Below are positions 4,740 to 57,704 of a stretch of 64,000 nucleotides of DNA, one piece after another. The translations under genes were made by a program, and so were the position numbers. The DNA is taken from assembly GCF_007922615.2 (NCBI RefSeq), contig NZ_CP042301.2, forward strand, positions 1,488,001 through 1,552,000, given 5' to 3'. Position 1 is the first letter of the stretch; each line of letters starts with the position of its first letter. The notes under the pieces are model-generated. The model was not told the origin of the DNA. It worked only from the letters and a program-made list of their open reading frames with translations, and searched no databases. This stretch comes from Nitratireductor mangrovi. GTDB taxonomy: Bacteria; Pseudomonadota; Alphaproteobacteria; Rhizobiales; Rhizobiaceae.

Positions 4740-5444
4740 ATGTCTGAGCAGCCCAAGCACCGCGGCATGACCCGCCTGCGCAACTACTTCCTGACCGGCT
4801 TCGTCGTATGTGCGCCGCTGGCCATCACGGCCTACCTGTCCTGGTCGCTCATCGGCTGGGTGGATTCCTGGGTCAAACCCTACATCCCGGCCCGCTACAA
4901 CCCGGACAACTACCTGCCATTCGCAGTGCCCGGTTTCGGGCTTATCGTGGCGCTGGTGCTGATCACGCTGGTCGGTTTCCTGACCGCCAACTTCATCGGG
5001 CGCTCGATCGTCTCCTATGGCGAGGATATGCTCGGGCGCATGCCGCTGGTGCGCTCGATCTATCGCGGCCTGAAGCAGATCTTCGAAACCGTGCTGTCGC
5101 ACAAATCCGATGTCTTCAAGAAGGTCGCGTTGATCGAATATCCGCGTCGCGGCGCATGGGCGATCGTTTTCGTGTCCTCAGAGCGCGAATCCGAGGTCAA
5201 CCACCTGATCGAGCCGCATGCGGGGCGCACAATCGCAGTCTTTCTGCCCTCGACGCCGAACCCGACCACCGGCTTCCTCATGTACGTGCCGAAATCCGAG
5301 GTGATCGAACTGTCGATGACGGTGGAGGAGGCAGCCAAGCTTGTCATCTCCGCGGGCCTCGTGACGCCCGAATACCAGAAACTGACCCAGCAGCTCGCCG
5401 AGGATGCGCTTCGGGGCGACCAGAAACGGCCAGCAGCCGAGTAG
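4740..5444 (+). CDS. DUF502 family membrane protein
   Basis: This is a 234-residue protein of the DUF502 family; no biochemical role is established. Two N-terminal hydrophobic segments are visible (about residues 17-45 and 65-90). They are followed by the conserved stretch LVRSIYRGLKQIFETVL and a soluble part with the family motif FLPSTPNPTTGFLMYVP. The C-terminal tail is charged and ends KRPAAE. It lies between glmS and recG, and its stop codon nearly abuts the convergent recG stop (3 bp apart). The position next to glmS and recG is what one expects in this bacterial group and gives no functional clue. Confidence 0.85.
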   Translation: MSEQPKHRGMTRLRNYFLTGFVVCAPLAITAYLSWSLIGWVDSWVKPYIPARYNPDNYLPFAVPGFGLIVALVLITLVGFLTANFIGRSIVSYGEDMLGRMPLVRSIYRGLKQIFETVLSHKSDVFKKVALIEYPRRGAWAIVFVSSERESEVNHLIEPHAGRTIAVFLPSTPNPTTGFLMYVPKSEVIELSMTVEEAAKLVISAGLVTPEYQKLTQQLAEDALRGDQKRPAAE

Positions 5445-5447
5445 TGG

Positions 5448-7556
5448 TCAGCCCGACCGCAACAGGCGGATCGCTGCATCCCTGCCAAAGATATAAAGCA
5501 GCAGGCGAAGCGCCTCGCCGCGCGGCGAGGTCAGTTCGGGATCCTGCTCCAGCACCAATCGCGCGTCGCTGCGAGCGGTTTCCAGCAAGTCGGCATGCGC
5601 TTCGATGCGGGCCACCTGGAAACCCGGTGTTCCGGACTGGCGCGTGCCGAGCAGTTCACCTTCGCCGCGCAGCTTCAGGTCTTCCTCGGCGATGACGAAG
5701 CCATCCTCGGTGTCGCGCATGACGGAAAGGCGTTTGGTCGCCGTCTCGCCGAGCGGTCCCTTGTAGAGCAGCACGCAGGTCGACGGCTTGTCGCCACGGC
5801 CGACGCGGCCACGCAGTTGGTGCAGCTGCGCGAGGCCGAAACGTTCGGCATGTTCGATCACCATGATCGTGGCGTCCGGCACGTCGACACCGACCTCGAT
5901 GACCGTGGTGGCGACGAGCAGCCTTGTCTCGCCGGACTTGAAGGCGCGCATCGCTTCGTTCTTGTCGGCGCCCTTCATGCGCCCATGCACCAGCCCGACC
6001 GTGTCGCCGAAACGCGGCGCCAGCAGCGAATGGCGCTCTTCGGCCGACATCAGCCCGGCCTCTTCGGACTCCTCGACCAGCGGGCAGATCCAATAGACCT
6101 TCTGTCCCTCGGCGAGCGCGCTGGCGATGCGGTCGAGGAGGTCGGCGAGCCGCTCGGTGGGCAGAGTGACGGTGACGACAGGACGGCGGCCGGCCGGCTT
6201 ATCCGTCAGCCGCGACACGTCCATGTCGCCGAAGGCCGTCAGCACCAGCGTGCGCGGGATCGGGGTCGCCGTCATCACCAGCATGTCCGGCGCAACACCC
6301 TTCGAGGTCAGGGCGAGGCGCTGGTGCACGCCAAAGCGATGCTGCTCGTCGATGATTGCCAGCACCAGTTCCTTGTAGCGGACCTCGTCCTGGAAGAGCG
6401 CGTGGGTGCCGACCACAATGCCGGTGGCGCCGTCCTCGATGCCCGCCAGGATTTCGCGCCGCTCGCGGCCCTTTTCGCGGCCGGTCAGGATTGCCGTCTC
6501 TATCCCCGCCTTTCTTGCCAGCGGCGCGATGGTGGCAAAATGCTGGCGAGCGAGGATCTCGGTCGGCGCCATCAGTACCGACTGGCCGCCGGCCTCGGAC
6601 GCGCGCGCCATGGCGAGCAGGCCGACCACGGTCTTGCCGGAACCGACGTCGCCCTGCAGCAGCCGCAACATGCGCTCCGGCCGGGCAAGGTCGTCGGCGA
6701 TCTCGGCAAAGGCCTGCTGCTGTGAACCGGTCAGCGTATAGGGCAGGGCGGCGCGAATGGCCTCGACCAGCTGGCCGTCGCCGGACAGCGGCCGGCCCGA
6801 CAGGCGCCGGATACGGGCGCGCACAAGCGCGAGCGAGAGCTGGTTGGCGAGAAGTTCGTCATAAGCCAGACGCCGGCGCGCGGGATTGTCGAGGTCGACA
6901 TCCTCCGGTCCCGCAGGGTGGTGCAACCGCGCCAGCGCGCTGCCAAAGGCGGGAAAACTATGGCGGCGCATCAAAGCCTCGTCGAGCCATTCGGGCAGGT
7001 CGGGCACATTGGCCAGGGCCTGCTCGAGCGAGCGGCGCAGCACCCGCGGCGAGAGCCCGGCGGTCAATGGGTAGACCGCCTCGACCAGCGGCAACGAGGC
7101 AGCCTCGGTCGCATTCACGATGTGGTCGGGATGCACCATCGAGGGCCGCCCGTTGAACCACTCCATGCGCCCGCTCACGACCACGTTTTCGCCAACCGGC
7201 AATGCCCTTTCGAGCCAGTTCTGCTTGGCGTGAAAGAAGGTCAGCGCGATCTCACCGGTCTCGTCGTGGGCAAAGACCCTGTAGGGCACGTTGCTCCTGC
7301 CGCGCGGCGACGGCTGGTGCCGGTCGACCCTCAGGTCGAGTGTCACGATCGCGCCCTCCGGGGCTGCGGCGATGCCCGGACGGTTGCGGCGGTCGATCAG
7401 CGAATGCGGCAGCACGAAAAGAAGGTCGCCGACCCTGACGTCGCGACCGGCAAGATCGGCGGGCACGATCCTGGCCAACAGGTCAGCGATCTTGGCGCCG
7501 ACGCCGTCGAGCGCGGTGGCCGGAGCGAACAGGGGATCGAGACGTGAGGGCCGCAT
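5448..7556 (-). CDS. recG: ATP-dependent DNA helicase RecG
   Basis: RecG is a superfamily 2 helicase that remodels stalled replication forks and branch-migrates Holliday junctions. The protein has 702 residues, the family's usual length. Visible are an N-terminal OB-fold wedge domain (about 60-160), Walker A GDVGSGKT (near 305), the DEQHRFG box (motif II), SATPIPRT (motif III), VATTVIEVGVDVPDA, and the QLRGRVGRG motif VI. The C-terminal RecG domain (GTRQSGTPGF) is present. It is convergent with the DUF502 gene and divergent from sdhE, with 91 bp between the two start codons. Confidence 0.97.
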   Translation of the reverse strand: MRPSRLDPLFAPATALDGVGAKIADLLARIVPADLAGRDVRVGDLLFVLPHSLIDRRNRPGIAAAPEGAIVTLDLRVDRHQPSPRGRSNVPYRVFAHDETGEIALTFFHAKQNWLERALPVGENVVVSGRMEWFNGRPSMVHPDHIVNATEAASLPLVEAVYPLTAGLSPRVLRRSLEQALANVPDLPEWLDEALMRRHSFPAFGSALARLHHPAGPEDVDLDNPARRRLAYDELLANQLSLALVRARIRRLSGRPLSGDGQLVEAIRAALPYTLTGSQQQAFAEIADDLARPERMLRLLQGDVGSGKTVVGLLAMARASEAGGQSVLMAPTEILARQHFATIAPLARKAGIETAILTGREKGRERREILAGIEDGATGIVVGTHALFQDEVRYKELVLAIIDEQHRFGVHQRLALTSKGVAPDMLVMTATPIPRTLVLTAFGDMDVSRLTDKPAGRRPVVTVTLPTERLADLLDRIASALAEGQKVYWICPLVEESEEAGLMSAEERHSLLAPRFGDTVGLVHGRMKGADKNEAMRAFKSGETRLLVATTVIEVGVDVPDATIMVIEHAERFGLAQLHQLRGRVGRGDKPSTCVLLYKGPLGETATKRLSVMRDTEDGFVIAEEDLKLRGEGELLGTRQSGTPGFQVARIEAHADLLETARSDARLVLEQDPELTSPRGEALRLLLYIFGRDAAIRLLRSG

Positions 7557-44160: not shown

Positions 44161-45375
44161 ATGATCTCGCGGAACCTCAGACATTTCAGAGTTTTTCTTG
44201 CTGTAGCCGAGCTTCGCAAGCCGACCGCGGCCGCTGACCGGTTCCTGGTTTCGCAGCCCGCGGTAACCCAGGCTCTCGCCAAACTGGAACGCCAAGCCGG
44301 GGGCGCCTTGTTCGAGCGTACCCGGCAAGGCTTTTTCCTGACCGAGCGCGGCGAGGTGCTCAACGCGCGACTGAGGCGCGCGATGGACAGGCTCGACAAC
44401 AGTTTCGCCGAGGTCTCGCCGAGGTTGGCGGTGACGGCCACGACGGCTCAATTGCAAGCGCTGATAGCCATGGCCGAGGCGCGGAACTTCACGCTGGCGG
44501 CACGCAGGCTCGGCGTCGCCCAACCAACCGTGCACAGGGCGATCACCCAGATCGAACTGGAGGCGACCCGGTCCCTGTTCGAGCGAACGCCCTTCGGCAT
44601 GGTGGCGACGCGACCCTGTCGCGAGCTCGCGCAGGCCGCCCGGCTTGCATTCTCCGAGTTCGACCAGATCGAGGCGGACCTTGCCGATCTTGACGGGCGC
44701 GAGGTGGGCCGTATCGTCGTCGGGTCCCTGCCGCTGTCCCGCTCCGTCGTGCTGCCTGAGGCCGTCGCCAGGTTCCTTTCCGCTCGGCCAAAGGGGAGGG
44801 TGACGATCATCGATGGCCCCTACGACGATTTGCTGGGGAGTCTCCGCAGCGGGCAGATCGACTTCATCCTCGGCGCCCTGCGCGATCCGCTGCCTATCGA
44901 CGACGTAACCCAGGAACCGCTTTTCCTCGATCATCTTGCGATACTCGCCCGACCCGACCACCCTTTGGCCGCCGAGCATGATATCCCGCTGGAGGTACTC
45001 GTTCAGCACACCTGGACCGTACCGCGGCCGGGTACGCCGGCGCGTGAGCAATTCGATGCCCTGTTCGAGGCGCAAGGAATGGTCCTGCCGGACAGCGTCG
45101 TGGAGTGTGGTTCGATACTGCTCATGCGGGAGTTGCTTCTCAGGAGCGACCTCCTGGGATGCATATCCGGTCAGCAAGCCGAGGCGGAGGTCCGCAACGG
45201 CCTTCTTGTAAGCCTGCGGACGCGAATCGATTGGCCCGGCCGCAGCATCGGCCTCACGTACCGCCGGGGCTGGGTACCCACGAAGGCCCAGAGCCTGCTC
45301 CTCGGGGCAATACGCAGAGCCACGGGTGAGAGGGGTTCGGCGTCGCGACTCATCGAAAGGCATAAGAAGATCTGA
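44161..45375 (+). CDS. LysR-type regulator with two tandem HTH domains
   Basis: The protein has 404 residues, about 100 more than a normal LysR regulator. The extra length is a second HTH. HTH 1 spans about residues 5-63 (recognition helix VSQPAVTQALAKLE) and HTH 2 about 95-152 (VAQPTVHRAITQIE); each is followed by the usual LFERT segment. A LysR substrate-binding domain follows (GRIVVGSLPLSRSVVLPEAV from about 183). The last 39 codons lie in a 192-bp sequence that is repeated at 47816. The start has no strong ribosome site. It is divergent from galB and probably regulates the gal genes (inference). Confidence 0.85.
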   Translation: MISRNLRHFRVFLAVAELRKPTAAADRFLVSQPAVTQALAKLERQAGGALFERTRQGFFLTERGEVLNARLRRAMDRLDNSFAEVSPRLAVTATTAQLQALIAMAEARNFTLAARRLGVAQPTVHRAITQIELEATRSLFERTPFGMVATRPCRELAQAARLAFSEFDQIEADLADLDGREVGRIVVGSLPLSRSVVLPEAVARFLSARPKGRVTIIDGPYDDLLGSLRSGQIDFILGALRDPLPIDDVTQEPLFLDHLAILARPDHPLAAEHDIPLEVLVQHTWTVPRPGTPAREQFDALFEAQGMVLPDSVVECGSILLMRELLLRSDLLGCISGQQAEAEVRNGLLVSLRTRIDWPGRSIGLTYRRGWVPTKAQSLLLGAIRRATGERGSASRLIERHKKI

Positions 45376-45449
45376 TCGTCACAACTGCCCGGCGATACCT
45401 CGTGGGCGGTGCGAACAATCAAGCGGGCAGGGGGGCTGATTTCCGCGGT
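45258..45449 (+). repeat. 192-bp direct repeat, copy 1 (3' end of tandem-HTH lysR and flank)
   Basis: This stretch aligns without gaps to 47816-48007, with eight mismatches counted by hand. It covers the last 39 codons of the LysR gene (GWVPTKAQSLLLG...SRLIERHKKI) and 74 bp beyond its stop. Identity starts abruptly inside the gene and stops abruptly at the hemolysin-family remnant. Confidence 0.93.
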
Positions 45450-47815: not shown

Positions 47816-48007
47816 GTACCGCCGGGGCTGGGTACCCACGAAGGCCCAGAGCCTGCTGCTCGGGGAAATACGCAGAGCCGCGGGTGAGACGGGTTCGGCG
47901 TCGCGACTCATCGAAAGGCATAAGAAGATCTGATCGTCACAACGGCCCGGCGATACCTCGTGGGCGGTGCGAATAATCAAGCGGGCAAGGGGGGTGATTT
48001 CCGCGGT
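47816..48007 (+). repeat. 192-bp direct repeat, copy 2
   Basis: It has the same length as copy 1 (45258-45449), in the same orientation, with eight mismatches and no gaps. The lysR-tail reading frame is still open in this copy, with three amino-acid changes (A-to-E, T-to-A, R-to-T), but it has no regulator upstream. Its left edge abuts the truncated kup gene. Confidence 0.93.
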
Positions 48008-48688: not shown

Positions 48689-49204
48689 TGTCTCATTGCT
48701 CCGCGCTCTGCATCACGCCGGTTGATGATCTCGGTTACGATATCTTTTGAACGGTTTTCAAAGCGATCGCGCTGGTCAGACCGCTGGCGCAGACCGACCG
48801 GTACTTGCCACAACGAGCCTTGGGTGGCCGCCCATGCCCGAATCCTCGTTAGCACATCCATGTCAGCGCTTGCATTCTCCTATGGGCCTTCCATGGAGCA
48901 ATGCGAACAATGCACGAAGCTATGAACAGCGGGACAGTTCTGTCAGGGCGGAGACCAAGACGTTCGATCCCGAGATGGTGCGTTTGAAGGTCACGAGCGC
49001 CGGCAGTAGGCGGTGATTGAGTACGGATGGTCCTGAGAACACCATCCCGCCGTATCGCGGGCAGGGGTCGTACGCGGTCGCGATGGCTCGAATACACGCG
49101 ATGATCGTTCTGGCGGAGGGAGTGGGCCTGATATCCAACCTTCTCCACCTCGCATGGCCTTCCTTCGGCTCGGCTTCGGATCTGACTTTTTTCGCTACAA
49201 TGGT
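48689..49204. other. Gap without a recognisable gene
   Basis: This 516-bp stretch contains only short open frames. A minus-strand frame ending at 48920 (72 codons from 49138) reads plausibly but matches no family I recognise and has no ribosome site. Part of it (49111-49147) resembles a segment at 58055-58091. Confidence 0.5.
49111..49147 (+). repeat. Imperfect 37-bp intergenic repeat, copy 1
   Basis: TGGCGGAGGG and TCCAACCTTCTCCA flank a variable middle; 31 of 37 positions match 58055-58091 by hand count. It is probably part of a dispersed intergenic element of this genome; its full extent is not clear. Confidence 0.45.
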
Positions 49205-49513
49205 TTATCCAAAGTCTTCCTTGAACCGGTCGATCTGGTGCATCCGCTCGTGCAGGATGGTGACGATGCCGATGTCGCCATTGCCGAGCCGTCTCCAGTA
49301 AACGAAGTGCCGCTCGTAGCGGAAGAAGTATCCGTCTACTCCGAACTCGGCCGGCACCGGCCTCGATATCACCCCGCGGGTTTCGATCTTCTCGAAGGCG
49401 TCGAACAGCCCGGTGATGTATGTCTCGGCCTGCGCTTCGCCCCACTGATCGCGGGTGTAGCGGTAGATCTCGTCGAGACGCACCGAGGCCGCTTCCTGGA
49501 CCCGGATTGCCAT
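49205..49513 (-). CDS. parE: ParE/RelE-superfamily toxin
   Basis: This 102-residue toxin has the RelE/ParE fold: AASVRLDEIYRYTRDQWGEAQA (in parts, about 8-29), ITGLFDAFEKIETRGVISRP and the C-terminal strand IGIVTILHERMHQIDRFKEDF. ParE proteins poison DNA gyrase; RelE proteins cut mRNA. The catalytic residues of RelE (basic cluster and Tyr at the C-terminus) are not evident, which favours ParE. It is 4 bp downstream of its antitoxin gene. Confidence 0.85.
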   Translation of the reverse strand: MAIRVQEAASVRLDEIYRYTRDQWGEAQAETYITGLFDAFEKIETRGVISRPVPAEFGVDGYFFRYERHFVYWRRLGNGDIGIVTILHERMHQIDRFKEDFG

Positions 49514-49517
49514 GGGC

Positions 49518-49775
49518 TCAAGCCCGCCGGTTTCGAGCGATCACCTCGGCGGCGGTCATGGGCGTGTAGCTCTCCTCGGGCGCGGCGAACGCCCGGTTCA
49601 GTTCCGCCTTCAGGCGATCGAAGGCTTCGCGCTCCGCGCGCTCCTTGTCGCGGCGGATCAGGTCGCGGATGTACTCACTGACGTTTTCATAGGCGCCGCC
49701 CTCGCCAACGTTCGTCGCGACGAACTCACTGAGAGCGCCGCTCACGCGTACGGTCATCGTTGTGGTGCGCGGCAT
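49518..49775 (-). CDS. parD: ParD/CopG-type antitoxin
   Basis: This 85-residue protein has an N-terminal ribbon-helix-helix (TTTMTVRVSGALSEFVATNV) with the ParD motif GAYENVSEYIRDLIRRDKER (about 26-45), followed by a flexible toxin-binding tail (AFAAPEESYTPMTAAEVIAR). The ATG at 49775 has AAGGAGGA ten bases upstream, one of the best ribosome sites in the region; the frame upstream is not homologous. It represses its own operon in known ParDE systems. Confidence 0.87.
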   Translation of the reverse strand: MPRTTTMTVRVSGALSEFVATNVGEGGAYENVSEYIRDLIRRDKERAEREAFDRLKAELNRAFAAPEESYTPMTAAEVIARNRRA

Positions 49776-49864
49776 GGGGGCCGTCCTCCTTCTTCTGTAT
49801 TCAAGATAACCAAAAACGAACGCAGGACAAGAGGTGGCATGGACCCCGGAGGTAGCGCACGCCC

Positions 49865-50113
49865 CTAATCGTCGTCCCTGATCCACCGCTCCGCCAGCGC
49901 CAGGAGCACCAACACGATGGCGTCGGAATGCCGCGCGAGTAAAATCAGGTGCTCGCCGCTCGGCCCGCGCTCACCCGAAAACCAGTATTTCACGGTTCTC
50001 TCGCTGGCTCCCGTCCACCGCATCGCGGTCTTGATCGCCCGATGAGTCGAGCCGAGCTCCGTATGCAAAGCCAAAGCTATCGCACCACGATAATCGCCCG
50101 GAATGCTGTCCAC
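49865..50113 (-). CDS. Small HTH-like protein of accessory elements
   Basis: This 82-residue protein carries a probable helix-turn-helix (THRAIKTAMRWTGASERTVKYW, in parts, about 23-44) followed by FSGERGPSGEHLILLARHSD, a pattern seen in small regulators near recombinases and prophages of Rhizobiales. It starts with GTG at 50113 and is transcribed away from the recombinase remnant. No further function can be given. Confidence 0.55.
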   Translation of the reverse strand: MDSIPGDYRGAIALALHTELGSTHRAIKTAMRWTGASERTVKYWFSGERGPSGEHLILLARHSDAIVLVLLALAERWIRDDD

Positions 50114-50154
50114 CAGAGATCATCGCGGGCGTTACGCGCCATGGCGGGTCGGCC

Positions 50155-50484
50155 GTGCAGGATCCGGCCACGGACCTTGTTCGCGTCAACGACGAGTTCA
50201 CCGTGTCCATCGTGCTGGCCCGCTGCACGGCGACGGCGGCCGGGTCGCTGCGCTGGCGCATCCGTCTCGACACTGGGCTGGTGCCGGACATCACCATCGC
50301 CGTGCGCATGGACGAGGTGAACGAGGCGCCGCGCGACTACTACGTGCTGCCCAGCATCGACATGACATTTGGGAAACTGAAATTCGCCAAGCAGAACGGG
50401 CTCGCGCTGGATGCGTACCGCTTCGATACGCTCGATTTCTTCTATGCGCTCGCCTCGCGGGCCAGGATCGCGGAGGTGGCGTGA
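50155..50484 (+). pseudogene. C-terminal remnant of a large serine recombinase
   Basis: The frame encodes DPATDLVRVNDEFTVSIVLAR, RIRLDTGLVPDITIAVRMDE, PRDYYVLPSIDMTFGKLKFA and FDTLDFFYALASRARI, which I recognise as the C-terminus of a recombinase family found upstream of paired ParB/RepB-like genes in rhizobial accessory elements. Homology seems to begin a little before the GTG at 50155 (PEIIAGV near 50113). The catalytic N-terminal domain is absent. Its stop overlaps the next ATG (TGATG), as in the intact module. The family identification is from memory, not from a search. Confidence 0.55.
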
Positions 50485-50851
50485 TGCCCGACGAATTTGA
50501 GCCGACCAGCCCGAAGCAGGTGACACTGATCCCGACTGACAGGATCCGGATCCTCAACCCCCGCGTCCGCAACCGGCGGACTTTCGAGGCAATGGTGGCC
50601 AACATCGCCCGCATTGGCCTGAAGCGCCCAATCACCGTGGCGCCGCGCGCCGGGACCGATCCGCAGGAATACGACCTCGTCTGCGGCCAAGGCCGCCTCG
50701 AGGCTTTCATGGAACTCAAGCAGGAGCGCATCCCCGCCATCGTGATCGAGGCCGACGAAAGCGACTGCCTCGTCATGAGCCTCGTCGAAAACTGTGCGCG
50801 GCGGCAGCACAACCCCATCGACCTGATGCGCGAGATCGGCGCGCTCCGCCA
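50484..50851 (+). pseudogene. ParB/RepB-like protein 1, N-terminal part
   Basis: About 122 codons of a ParB-like nuclease/partition N-terminal domain remain: QVTLIPTDRIRILNPRVRNR, NIARIGLKRPITVAPRAG, YDLVCGQGRLEAFMELKQ and VMSLVENCARRQHNPIDLMR. After REIGALR the sequence leaves this gene: the following bases belong to ParB-like protein 2 in another frame. The continuation (ERGYNDRQIGEKIGVSTEY) is found inverted at 51041-51442. Confidence 0.75.
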
Positions 50852-51046
50852 GCGCAGCTGGTCGAGTCGTCCAAGCCAAAGAAGGTCAAAGGGATCACGC
50901 CCGAGGCGATGGCACGGATGGAGCAGGAACTCGCCCGGCTGCAGGAGGGCATCGCCTCGATCCAGGACACCTATGGCCAGGATCACCTGCATCTGACGGT
51001 GATCAAGGGCTACGTCGGCAGACTGCTCGGGAACGCCCGGGTTGTG
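50852..51046 (+). pseudogene. ParB/RepB-like protein 2, displaced segment
   Basis: In the +2 frame relative to the preceding piece it encodes AQLVESSKPKKVKGITPEAM, ARMEQELARLQEGIASIQDT and YGQDHLHLTVIKGYVGRLLG. This belongs between the pieces now at 51440-51664 (ending GTPQA) and 51662-51752 (beginning RYLAQNHPEF). It has moved about 600-800 bp upstream while keeping its orientation. Confidence 0.7.
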
Positions 51047-51442
51047 CTCTGCCTTCTTGATCAGCAGCTTCTGGCGCGTGGCTTCCTGCTGATAGGCGCG
51101 AACGAGGCCTTCGCTGGTCAGCGCCCGTCTCCCCACACGGCGACCGAGCGGATTGCTCTTGATCTGCGGGCCGCGCAATTCGCGCTGCTGGATCAGGCGT
51201 CGCACGAGCGCCAGCTTCCGGCCGCGCAGCTTGTTCTGCGTGTAGGCGTCCATCAGCGCCTTCTGTGCGCCCTTCGCGTCCGTCTTGGAAATCTGGATGG
51301 CGAGATTCAGCGGCAGGAGCCCCGACTCGACTGCCGCGACCAGGCGCTCTTCGCCTTTCTCCAACAGACCGGCGATCATGTTCACATACTCGGTGGACAC
51401 GCCGATCTTCTCGCCGATTTGCCGGTCGTTGTAGCCGCGCTC
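51041..51442 (-). pseudogene. ParB/RepB-like protein 1, middle part, inverted
   Basis: On the minus strand it encodes ERGYNDRQIGEKIGVSTEYV, NMIAGLLEKGEERLVAAVES, GLLPLNLAIQISKTDAKGAQ, ALMDAYTQNKLRGRKLALVR and LIKKAEH, the natural continuation of the piece ending at 50851 (...REIGALR). It is therefore inverted relative to its own N-terminus. The rest of protein 1 after KKAEH is missing. Confidence 0.75.
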
Positions 51443-51752
51443 GACCTCAACATGAGCAGCATCCGGCGCAAGGCGCGCCTGCTCGATGGCATCTGCGAGG
51501 AAGCGGTCGCGATCCTGAAGGACAAGCCCTGCACCAATGCGGTGTTCGAGACACTGCGCAAGATGAAGACCATGCGGCAGATCGAGGCGGCCGAGCTGCT
51601 GGTCAACGCAAACAACTATTCCGTCGCCTATGTGAACGCGATCCTCGCGGGCACGCCGCAGGCGCTATCTGGCGCAGAACCATCCCGAGTTCCTCGGCGA
51701 GTTCCAGACGATCACCGAGATCACGCCGGTGGAAGCCGCCAACCCCGATTGA
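51440..51752 (+). pseudogene. ParB/RepB-like protein 2, C-terminal half with internal deletion
   Basis: The first frame gives LDLNMSSIRRKARLLDGICE, EAVAILKDKPCTNAVFETLR and NANNYSVAYVNAILAGTPQA up to 51664. At a shared GCG the sequence jumps to another frame: YLAQNHPEFLGEFQTITEIT and the stop at 51752. The segment that should lie between them is at 50852-51046. The N-terminal half of protein 2 is not found. Confidence 0.72.
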
Positions 51753-52104
51753 TTGAGGCAAGAGCAGACGATGGGGACCCGGACCCGACAAGCGCGGGGA
51801 CCGCGGGAGACGCCGGACGGTGGGCCGGATCGAGCGCGGCGGTGGGGATGGCGGCGAACCCGTTCGGAGCCCACCAGGCTGGCTGGAGTTTTCGCCGGCC
51901 GCGTGGCCGCCTCCGCGGCTGCGTTCAATCTGGGCGTGTCGGAGGACGGGCTACTCCGGCACGCCCATGCAAGCGAGGCGGCTCCGACGTCGAACAGCGT
52001 AGATTTCAGGCTGAGAGCGCAGACGGTAGCGCGGGGTCCATCAAATCGATGCGTCGGAGAGATCGCCGACGCCGGAGTTGTTGGGTGCACCACGAAGGCT
52101 CGCT
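51753..52104. other. Gap without a recognisable gene
   Basis: This 352-bp stretch lies between the ParB remnants and the convergent wHTH-TPR gene. Open frames here are arginine-rich and look like shadows; no family resemblance, hairpin or repeat was seen. Confidence 0.5.
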
Positions 52105-56393: not shown

Positions 56394-57060
56394 CTACGAT
56401 GGCCGCTCGTCCGCCTCGACGAACGCCGCCGGTTGCATCGCGCGCCGATCGATCTCCAGACGGAACAGATCAGGCCGTCCGTAGTGGCCGGCGACGTCGA
56501 GCGATTTTCGCGCGCTGCGCGCTGCCTCGGCGTCGATCGTCGCGTAGAGGATGCCCTTCTCCCGGTGGAGCGGCCCGGCGACCACGCCGCCGAACGGCTT
56601 GATGACGACGGCATCGCCGGGATTGATCCATTCGTCATCCGTGAACAGCGTGTCGCGCTCGGGAAAGCTGTCGGGAATGTCCGAGCCGGCGAGCGCGGTG
56701 GCGGTGCCGAGCACCCAGCAGCCGCCCTCGCGCGCGATGTGATTCGTGGTGGCGAGCCATGTCTCGCCGCTGTCCCAGGTCGGGGCAATGTAGATGTCGA
56801 GGTTCTGGGCGTAGAGCGCGAAGCGGGCGAGCGGCATGTAGCTCTCCCAGCAGATCAGGCAGCCGATGCGCCCGACCGGCGTATCGACCACACGCAGGCC
56901 GCGGGCGTCGCCCATGCCCCAGACCATGCGCTCGGGATTGGTCGGCATCAGCTTGCGGTGCCGGTTGAGGATGGCGCCGTCGGGCCCGACCACGACGACG
57001 GTGTTGAACAGGGTCGAGCCGCTGAATTCGGAATCGATCTCGTGCATTCCCATGACGACG
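56394..57060 (-). pseudogene. Nitrilase, C-terminal two-thirds
   Basis: It encodes the central and C-terminal part of a carbon-nitrogen hydrolase of the nitrilase branch: VVMGMHEIDSEFSGSTLFNT, the catalytic Lys in NRHRKLMPTNPERM and the catalytic Cys in GCLICWESYMPLARFALYAQ, ending EADERPS. The N-terminal third with the catalytic Glu is missing. At about 57060 the sequence switches to a phage-type nuclease gene in another frame on the same strand. Not expected to be active. Confidence 0.82.
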
Positions 57061-57704
57061 GTCGAAGAAGTCGGGCGTGGTGGCGACGCGCGGCAGCAGC
57101 TCGCCCGCATCGGTCGCCTGCAGGATCCGCACGCCCCGGTCGGACATGCGCTGCGCGAGATCGGCGTCGAAGGCGACCTGCTCGTGGTGGAGCTCGGCGG
57201 TGTCCTTGTTGATCGCGGTGAACACGGCGGGCGCGGCGCTGATGCCAGGCACGCTGGTTTCCATGTAGGCCTGATAGAGCGCGATCTGGGCGGCGTAGAC
57301 CGGCTTCGACTTGGTCACGCCGTCCTTGACGCAGGCGCGCCAGTTCTTCGCGTTCATCGTCTTGCATTCCCAGAGCGCGGGAACGGCCAGACCGAAGCCT
57401 TCGGGCCCGGCGGCGACGATGCCGTCGACATGACCGCGGATGCGCCCGCCCGCGACGGAGAAGCCGAACTGGCCGCCATCGGGCCGGTTGCCCTTGCGCG
57501 TGTAGAGGTCGAAGCCCGCGCCGCGCAGCCAGGCGACGGCCAGATCCTCGAGCGCATGGCCGATGGCGAAGATGCGCAGCGACTGGCCGCTGAAGTCCTG
57601 GCCCTCGTCCTTCGGCGTCGCCGTGAACTCGAACTGCAGGGCACGCTCGCAGGCATGGCCGAGACGCGAGCCGCGAGATAATCTGCCACGTGGCTGAACC
57701 CCAT
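57056..57704 (-). pseudogene. Phage-type PD-(D/E)XK nuclease remnant
   Basis: It begins MGFSHVADYLA at 57704; one base appears lost near 57675, after which the homologous frame continues SRLGHACERALQFEFTATPK. GHVDGIVAAGPEGF, ALWECKTMNAKNWRAC (the D...ExK core) and KPVYAAQIALYQAYMETSVP follow. This is the organisation of RecB/YqaJ-like nucleases of prophages and integrative elements. It stops at TTPDFF, before the usual C-terminal cysteines, where the nitrilase fragment begins. Both the frameshift and the truncation mark it as a pseudogene. Confidence 0.72.

Follow-up and report, generated by a model that had tools for sequence, protein, structure and literature searches.

A broken and reshuffled recombinase-ParB-ParB module followed by a conserved, predicted structured RNA in Nitratireductor mangrovi

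Large serine recombinase genes followed by two ParB_N/RepB-type genes are annotated as sets on alphaproteobacterial plasmids and chromosomes. The same three genes, in the same order, were found in the relatives of the locus described here, which lies in a 64,000-nucleotide window of the Nitratireductor mangrovi genome (NZ_CP042301.2, positions 1,488,001 to 1,552,000, forward strand); unlike the annotated sets, the copy in the window is broken. The first intact gene order was obtained from a Pseudorhodobacter turbinis plasmid, and the relatives were the best 80 loci from named genomes as ranked by the Pseudorhodobacter ParB-1, mostly Rhodobacteraceae by their record titles, together with Rhizobiales and sphingomonads. 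The starts of the recombinase, ParB-1 and ParB-2 genes stood in the normal order in 78 of these 80 loci, a test that concerned gene starts and not gene interiors; L067, with a match outside the position filter, and L113, at a contig end, were left unscored. The intact recombinase of one relative (L020) carried both the Resolvase and the Recombinase domains, the same Pfam domains as in the annotated system. The recombinase in the window lacked both domains and retained its C-terminal remnant alone.

Marinibacterium profundimaris (L087) served as the reference copy for mapping, as its module is intact, shares 86-97% DNA identity with the pieces in the window and is the closest to the window among the best 80 loci. 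Divided at the breakpoints, the L087 module reads A-B-C-D-E-F; its pieces end at about 5372 (A), about 5766 (B), about 6312 (C), 6542 (D) and about 6735 (E), after which F follows. In the window the order is A, E, inverted B, D, F, and the two ParB_N/RepB genes no longer lie ordered on one strand. The rearrangement itself is certain. The first-pass annotation, made from the letters of the window, had described five reshuffled pieces with one of them flipped, and this was borne out at the DNA level, as all five could be placed on L087.

Piece A (50116-50859 of the window, L087 4633-5376, plus strand) joins the recombinase C-terminus to the ParB-1 N-terminus. Its first part (50116-50484, plus strand), in frame and stop-free, is 90.6% identical to L087 over 363 bp and confirms the earlier identification of a large serine recombinase remnant directly upstream, although on its own the remnant gave no significant domain; its second part, the ParB-1 N-terminal part (50484-50855, plus strand), is 94.1% identical to L087 and gave a ParB_N hit of 1.8e-8 in 50484-50858. 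The ParB-2 C-terminal part, moved forward as piece E (50856-51047, plus strand), lies in a DNA match of 50846-51050 to L087 6533-6737 on the plus strand, with a RepB hit of 7.9e-14 in 50858-51043. Piece B, the middle of ParB-1 (51046-51441, minus strand; L087 5763-5368), is inverted. It is 95.5% identical to its L087 counterpart over 396 bp and gave a RepB hit of 6.7e-15 in the reverse strand of 51044-51400, so the inverted frame is homologous to ParB-1 and not an unrelated reading. The earlier part of ParB-2 follows as piece D (51436-51665, plus strand; L087 6313-6542, 97% identity; RepB 1.8e-16 in 51452-51664), and the ParB-2 tail as piece F (51662-51752, plus strand), within a plus-strand match of 51662-51967 to L087 6733-7037 that also takes in the RNA discussed below; the 29-residue tail gave no Pfam hit. 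The only PADLOC match was that of a methyltransferase model to a ParB N-domain.

Two stretches of the intact module are absent from the window. Piece C (about 550 bp) is missing, and about 1.56 kb upstream, including the N-terminal, catalytic half of the recombinase, was deleted separately; neither stretch had a match in the host's own genome. A donor copy of the module elsewhere in the genome was ruled out, since the own-genome searches gave no match. The genome is a single contig of 4.86 Mb, 99.98% complete, in which 50155-51752 occurs once. Three genomes of the same genus contained no match to 50155-51752, apart from one 35-bp match in a further search, and a phage collection gave no DNA match.

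The pieces appear to have been broken only recently on the scale of their divergence. Together they hold 511 codons with no stop, and A, E, B and D are equal in length to their L087 counterparts in the alignment. The codons of the window and L087 differ by 78 synonymous and 19 nonsynonymous changes. When ten other relatives were used to polarise these differences by majority, the window lineage was assigned 42 synonymous and 6 nonsynonymous ones, and the L087 lineage 33 and 12. Free decay would be expected to produce mostly nonsynonymous changes, unlike the pattern here, and nearly all of the divergence would thus predate the break. These figures support two further points of the first-pass annotation, namely that the codons inside the pieces had stayed clean and that the rearrangement was recent.

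The bases shared at the joints provide information about how the pieces were rejoined. The proposal that each joint falls at a few shared bases held in principle; the joints proved to be four, with other bases and positions than those first given. They are GCGC at 50852-50855 (A/E), GC at 51046-51047 (E/inverted B), CGCGCT at 51436-51441 (inverted B/D) and GCGC at 51662-51665 (D/F). A fifth, upstream joint at about 50112-50116 marks the 1.56-kb deletion and carries about three extra bases, CCA. The lengths of the overlaps were taken, site by site, from the best-fitting parent state. At D/E this was GCG, found in L087 and L079; at E/F it was GTGCGCTATC, shared by L064, L112 and five others but not by L087; at C/D it was CTCGCGCTCGAC, the form of L087 and L081, whose state was also used at B/C. 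Because D is 97% identical to L087, the L087 states at D/E and C/D are supported. Pieces E and F are nearer to other relatives than to L087, which indicates that the parent copy was a mosaic. Other relatives carry GCC at D/E or C/D; a parent with GCC at D/E would leave 1 base at A/E and 2 at D/F, and one with GCC at C/D would leave 2 at inverted B/D, for overlaps of 1, 2, 2 and 2.

The excess of overlap over chance depends on which parent is assumed. The null was drawn from the L087 module as about 300,000 random joints, 2.5% of which overlapped by at least 4 bp. Under this null, the total of 16 bases from the best parent had P = 5e-5, the total of 11 with GCC at D/E had P = 0.004, and the total of 7 with GCC also at C/D, at P = 0.07, was not above chance.

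The main argument comes from the three sites at which both sides of a cut survive, s1 (A/B), s2 (D/E) and s3 (E/F). As read by hand in L087 coordinates, the end of A may lie anywhere in 5368-5372 and the start of B in 5368-5374; D can end in 6538-6542 and E start in 6539-6543; E can end in 6732-6734 and F start in 6733-6737. With the best-fitting parent states, a single cut can therefore account for both sides at all three sites without the loss or gain of a base; under the worst states (GCC at both D/E and C/D), the two sides of s1 would share a few bases instead of meeting exactly. By an analytic estimate, three such coincidences within 4 bp would arise with a probability of about 3e-7 if switch points were independent over 1.4 kb. 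The exact refit therefore favours cutting and rejoining over copying by template switching.

We accordingly consider it fairly probable that an integrative element entered the chromosome and was recently broken at several points and rejoined by multi-break end joining. The element would have carried the large serine recombinase, the two ParB/RepB-type genes and the structured RNA, and among the copies seen it would be nearest to those of Rhodobacteraceae. About five double-strand breaks would have fallen within 1.4 kb, in what the cut-site fit suggests was a single episode, and the ends would have been rejoined by Ku-LigD or by alternative end joining through overlaps of a few bases. What the mapping itself shows is five cut points in the intact order, with B, D and E rejoined out of order, B flipped, C lost and the N-terminal part of the recombinase deleted separately; the coding pieces are dead, and the RNA downstream is untouched. 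The host has one Ku gene adjoining a LigD with phosphoesterase, ligase and Prim-Pol domains, which gives it the capacity for end joining and is not proof that this pathway acted here; with overlaps of 4 and 6 bp, alternative end joining would be no poorer a fit than NHEJ. Of the two origins that the first-pass annotation had offered, the break-repair-like one thus gains support from the short overlaps with plausible parents and from Ku and LigD in the host.

The rival that survives best, though we regard it as unlikely, is MMBIR-like copying, in which a restarted fork would have jumped between short matches in the module and once onto the other strand. It would account for the overlaps of a few bases, given plausible parents, and for the one inverted piece. 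Template switching often leaves duplications, however, and no stretch of A, B, D, E or F longer than a few bases occurs twice; additionally, the points of leaving and entry would have had to coincide by chance at the same three sites. A stepwise series of conservative events, in which a three-cut exchange placed E before B and a later inversion came with the loss of C, seems more doubtful still. Such an exchange would use exactly s1, s2 and s3, the loss-free sites, but the later inversion would then need another precise cut at the newly formed E/B joint, and inversions alone would require three steps that reuse cut points (by hand count). No intermediate order was seen either, the three same-genus genomes being without a match to the region.

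Scrambling by a recombinase or endonuclease that cuts at GCGC and leaves two-base cohesive ends, free to rejoin in any arrangement and in either orientation, is very improbable. Serine recombinases leave two-base overhangs, and GCGC was present at four of the five cut sites, in at least some relatives (P about 2e-4). This pattern was noticed post hoc, however; GCGC is common in the module (39 occurrences in 2405 bp of L087), microhomology joining in GC-rich DNA would favour it too, and the fifth cut site lacks it. Moreover, no longer site common to the five cut sites was found over 50 bp beyond the similarity expected by chance (mean best match 19.7 against a null of 19.2, P = 0.25), and no recombinase sites were recognized at the joints, so the recombinase-driven origin that the first-pass annotation had also entertained gained no support. 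Least probable of all is an artefact of assembly or library, as the scramble, known though it is from the assembly of one genome alone, lies in a unique region of a complete, one-contig genome, with overlaps of at most 6 bp that are too short to mislead an assembler and lost fragments that match nothing elsewhere in the genome.

Homology with relatives ran from 49111 to about 51977 of the window. The left end of the element is a 16-bp sequence (49111-49126) identical to the 3' end of the host tRNA-Ser(TGA), which ARAGORN placed at genome position 1597814, 60.7 kb away. With up to 2 mismatches allowed, this core occurred at only two places in 111.5 kb, both of them exact. The homology of L069, L079, L081 and L090 begins at the 49111 end, and the sequence outside the element in L079, L090 and L080 resembles, by eye, the 3' flank of tRNA-Ser(TGA) with a terminator-like hairpin. 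The tRNA-Ser core at the end of the element and the tRNA-Ser-like outer flanks in relatives make it probable that the element integrates at tRNA-Ser(TGA). The window genome keeps an intact tRNA-Ser, with the element 60.7 kb off beside other DNA; the flanks of the element gave no more than short or weak matches in the three same-genus genomes. That the element now sits in the tRNA-Ser was ruled out, as the tRNA keeps its terminator-like flank. A looser copy of the core was seen at genome position 4301193, and two same-genus genomes (L132 and L133) have others; one of the two, G003 (L133), has the same left end and a ParE-like stretch.

Between the left end and the recombinase remnant lie three features on the minus strand. 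A ParE-like toxin gene (49205-49513; Pfam ParE_toxin, 1e-8) has colinear DNA in L081, L079, L069 and others, and partly in L087. The adjoining ORF (49518-49886), which had no Pfam hit and is colinear at the DNA level with relatives, we take to be a putative antitoxin from its position and a general resemblance. Upstream of the recombinase, a remnant of a divergent small gene (49865-50113) had no Pfam hit and matched a PHROG of unassigned function at 1.3e-4. Positions 49291-50112 correspond to L087 2250-3071 with 92.6% identity.

The best match of piece A besides the window was 78% in a sample of 394 genomes of the host family, against 92% in Marinibacterium, which suggests that the element was acquired by horizontal transfer. 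Elsewhere in the window, a 192-bp direct repeat, 96% identical, lies at the tail of a LysR gene (45258-45449 and 47816-48007), and its second copy abuts a K+ transporter ORF without its N-terminal part. A carbon-nitrogen hydrolase ORF (56397-57110, minus strand) matched only positions 76-256 of a 256-position profile and is probably another truncated gene in this neighbourhood, missing its N-terminal part.

Directly 3' of ParB-2, at 51770-51967 on the plus strand, the window holds an intact copy of what appears to be a conserved structured RNA; its counterpart in L087 lies at 6842-6972, and one copy was found in the window genome. In more distant relatives (the L043-L051 rows), this stretch was more conserved than the genes, with 84-92% identity over 139-198 bp against 72-80% for coding sequence. 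BLAST found it in 69 of the 113 loci compared, some of which cover one place twice. Covariation was assessed in 52 selected sequences, the window and 51 loci, with 18 matched loci left out. The alignment had 49 pairs, 24 of them with changes on both sides. Pairing was 97.6% against 91.9% in shuffled alignments and double-change pairs were 24 against 13.4, with none of 500 shuffles as good on any measure. The structure came from this very alignment, which favours it, and relatedness by itself can lift sequences above shuffles in the absence of structure. When the partner was slid by 1-3 columns, at most 41.3% paired, and this control, together with frequent changes from G-C to G-U, points to an RNA read from the plus strand. 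The window kept 49 of the 49 consensus pairs, its row having been among the 52 sequences behind them.

For the core, the comparison was repeated on an unselected set made up of all 63 matched loci plus the window. Double changes appeared in 12 of 28 pairs, whereas 300 shuffles averaged 5.4 such pairs and never exceeded 9, and 97.9% were paired against 94.1% when shuffled. The middle helix was drawn differently in this set, so that predicted helix is less certain. A 130-nt core model built from 38 sequences, the window excluded, scored the window copy at 140.9 bits. Single-sequence folding was unremarkable (z = -1.6 for the plus strand and -0.5 for the minus strand), and the case for a structured RNA rests on covariation. 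A coding reading of 51770-51967 was ruled out by indels in relatives that are not multiples of three and by the base-pair covariation.

The RNA followed ParB-2 in 63 of the best 80 genome-contig loci, including partial or weak copies in L052, L058, L062 and L098. Of the remaining 17, eight showed no complete end of ParB-2, owing to a contig end or a truncated match, and nine had a full ParB-2 and no RNA match (L118, L114-L116, L119, L086 and L104-L106). L117, with gene coordinates equal to those of L118, has the RNA that L118 lacks. Some copies stop partway (L020 at about 8232, L052 and L058); in L020 and L052 the break comes at nearly one position, about 60 nt into the RNA. Such partial copies may mark insertions or a recombination point. 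With the host's own genome included each time, the RNA was also found in 2 of 61 genomes of relatives and, across the class, in 15 of 385 genomes, the latter with 18 hits. At all 18 non-own loci (17 in the class, 1 in the relatives), at least the end of ParB-2 lay directly upstream. Ten plasmid records carried the RNA.

A motif scan located the RNA in 43 viral contigs, all 43 of which were matched by the model. ParB-2 lay directly upstream in 31 and was not seen in 12, of which seven have no more than about 200 nt of upstream sequence and five (L158, L161, L163, L181 and L182) have more. In L158 (about 3790), L161 (about 4350) and L182 (about 950) the RNA stands beside a convergent phage tail-fibre-like gene with no adjoining module, and in L181 (about 6842) beside fragments of such a gene, again with no adjoining module. 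The same tail gene occurs in L156 and L197, where the upstream sequence is too short to judge. In L157, L175, L176 and L180, ParB-2, the RNA and the tail gene adjoin, and L176 and L180 also have the recombinase and ParB-1. The adjoining of module, RNA and tail gene in viral contigs suggests that the module may be the integration module of some prophages. The nine ParB-2 loci without the RNA and the viral loci without ParB-2 argue against a strict link, and the RNA can stand without the module. The RNA might itself serve the recombinase-ParB-ParB machine, attaching to the recombinase or to ParB proteins and helping DNA sites to be selected or assembled, a speculation to which we assign little likelihood; if true, the module would be an RNA-assisted integration system.

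Compared with known structured RNAs in Rfam, this one is alike in its covarying stem-loops ending in a hairpin, but Rfam 15 gave no match above threshold for the window stretch (best RT-15, 18.8 of 82 bits) and nothing but a tRNA for five relatives. The plasmid records seen annotate it as nothing or as a hypothetical protein, never as RNA, or are unannotated. Among the literature matches listed, mostly from outside the subscription journals, the module with its RNA was undescribed. For the scramble, among the literature matches listed on chromothripsis and prokaryotic NHEJ/LigD, chromothripsis occurred in none but one, which concerns extrachromosomal circular DNA. Chromothripsis is a multi-break rejoining and serves here as an analogy. 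As in rearrangements by bacterial two-component Ku-LigD NHEJ and in chromothripsis-like rejoining, the fragments in the window were kept once, reordered and reoriented, with one lost, the overlaps are short, one joint has a few extra bases, and the host carries Ku and LigD. The event differs in its scale, 1.4 kb inside one operon, and is known here from its sequence alone. It is a legible multi-break shuffle with near relatives of every piece, in which cutting and rejoining can be separated from template switching; events of this kind are known, but few examples are so clean. The RNA, which ranges over Alphaproteobacteria and viral contigs, is the more novel part and a stronger lead than the scramble, as a covarying RNA tied to a serine recombinase and two ParB-like partners offers a target for studying the function of the module.
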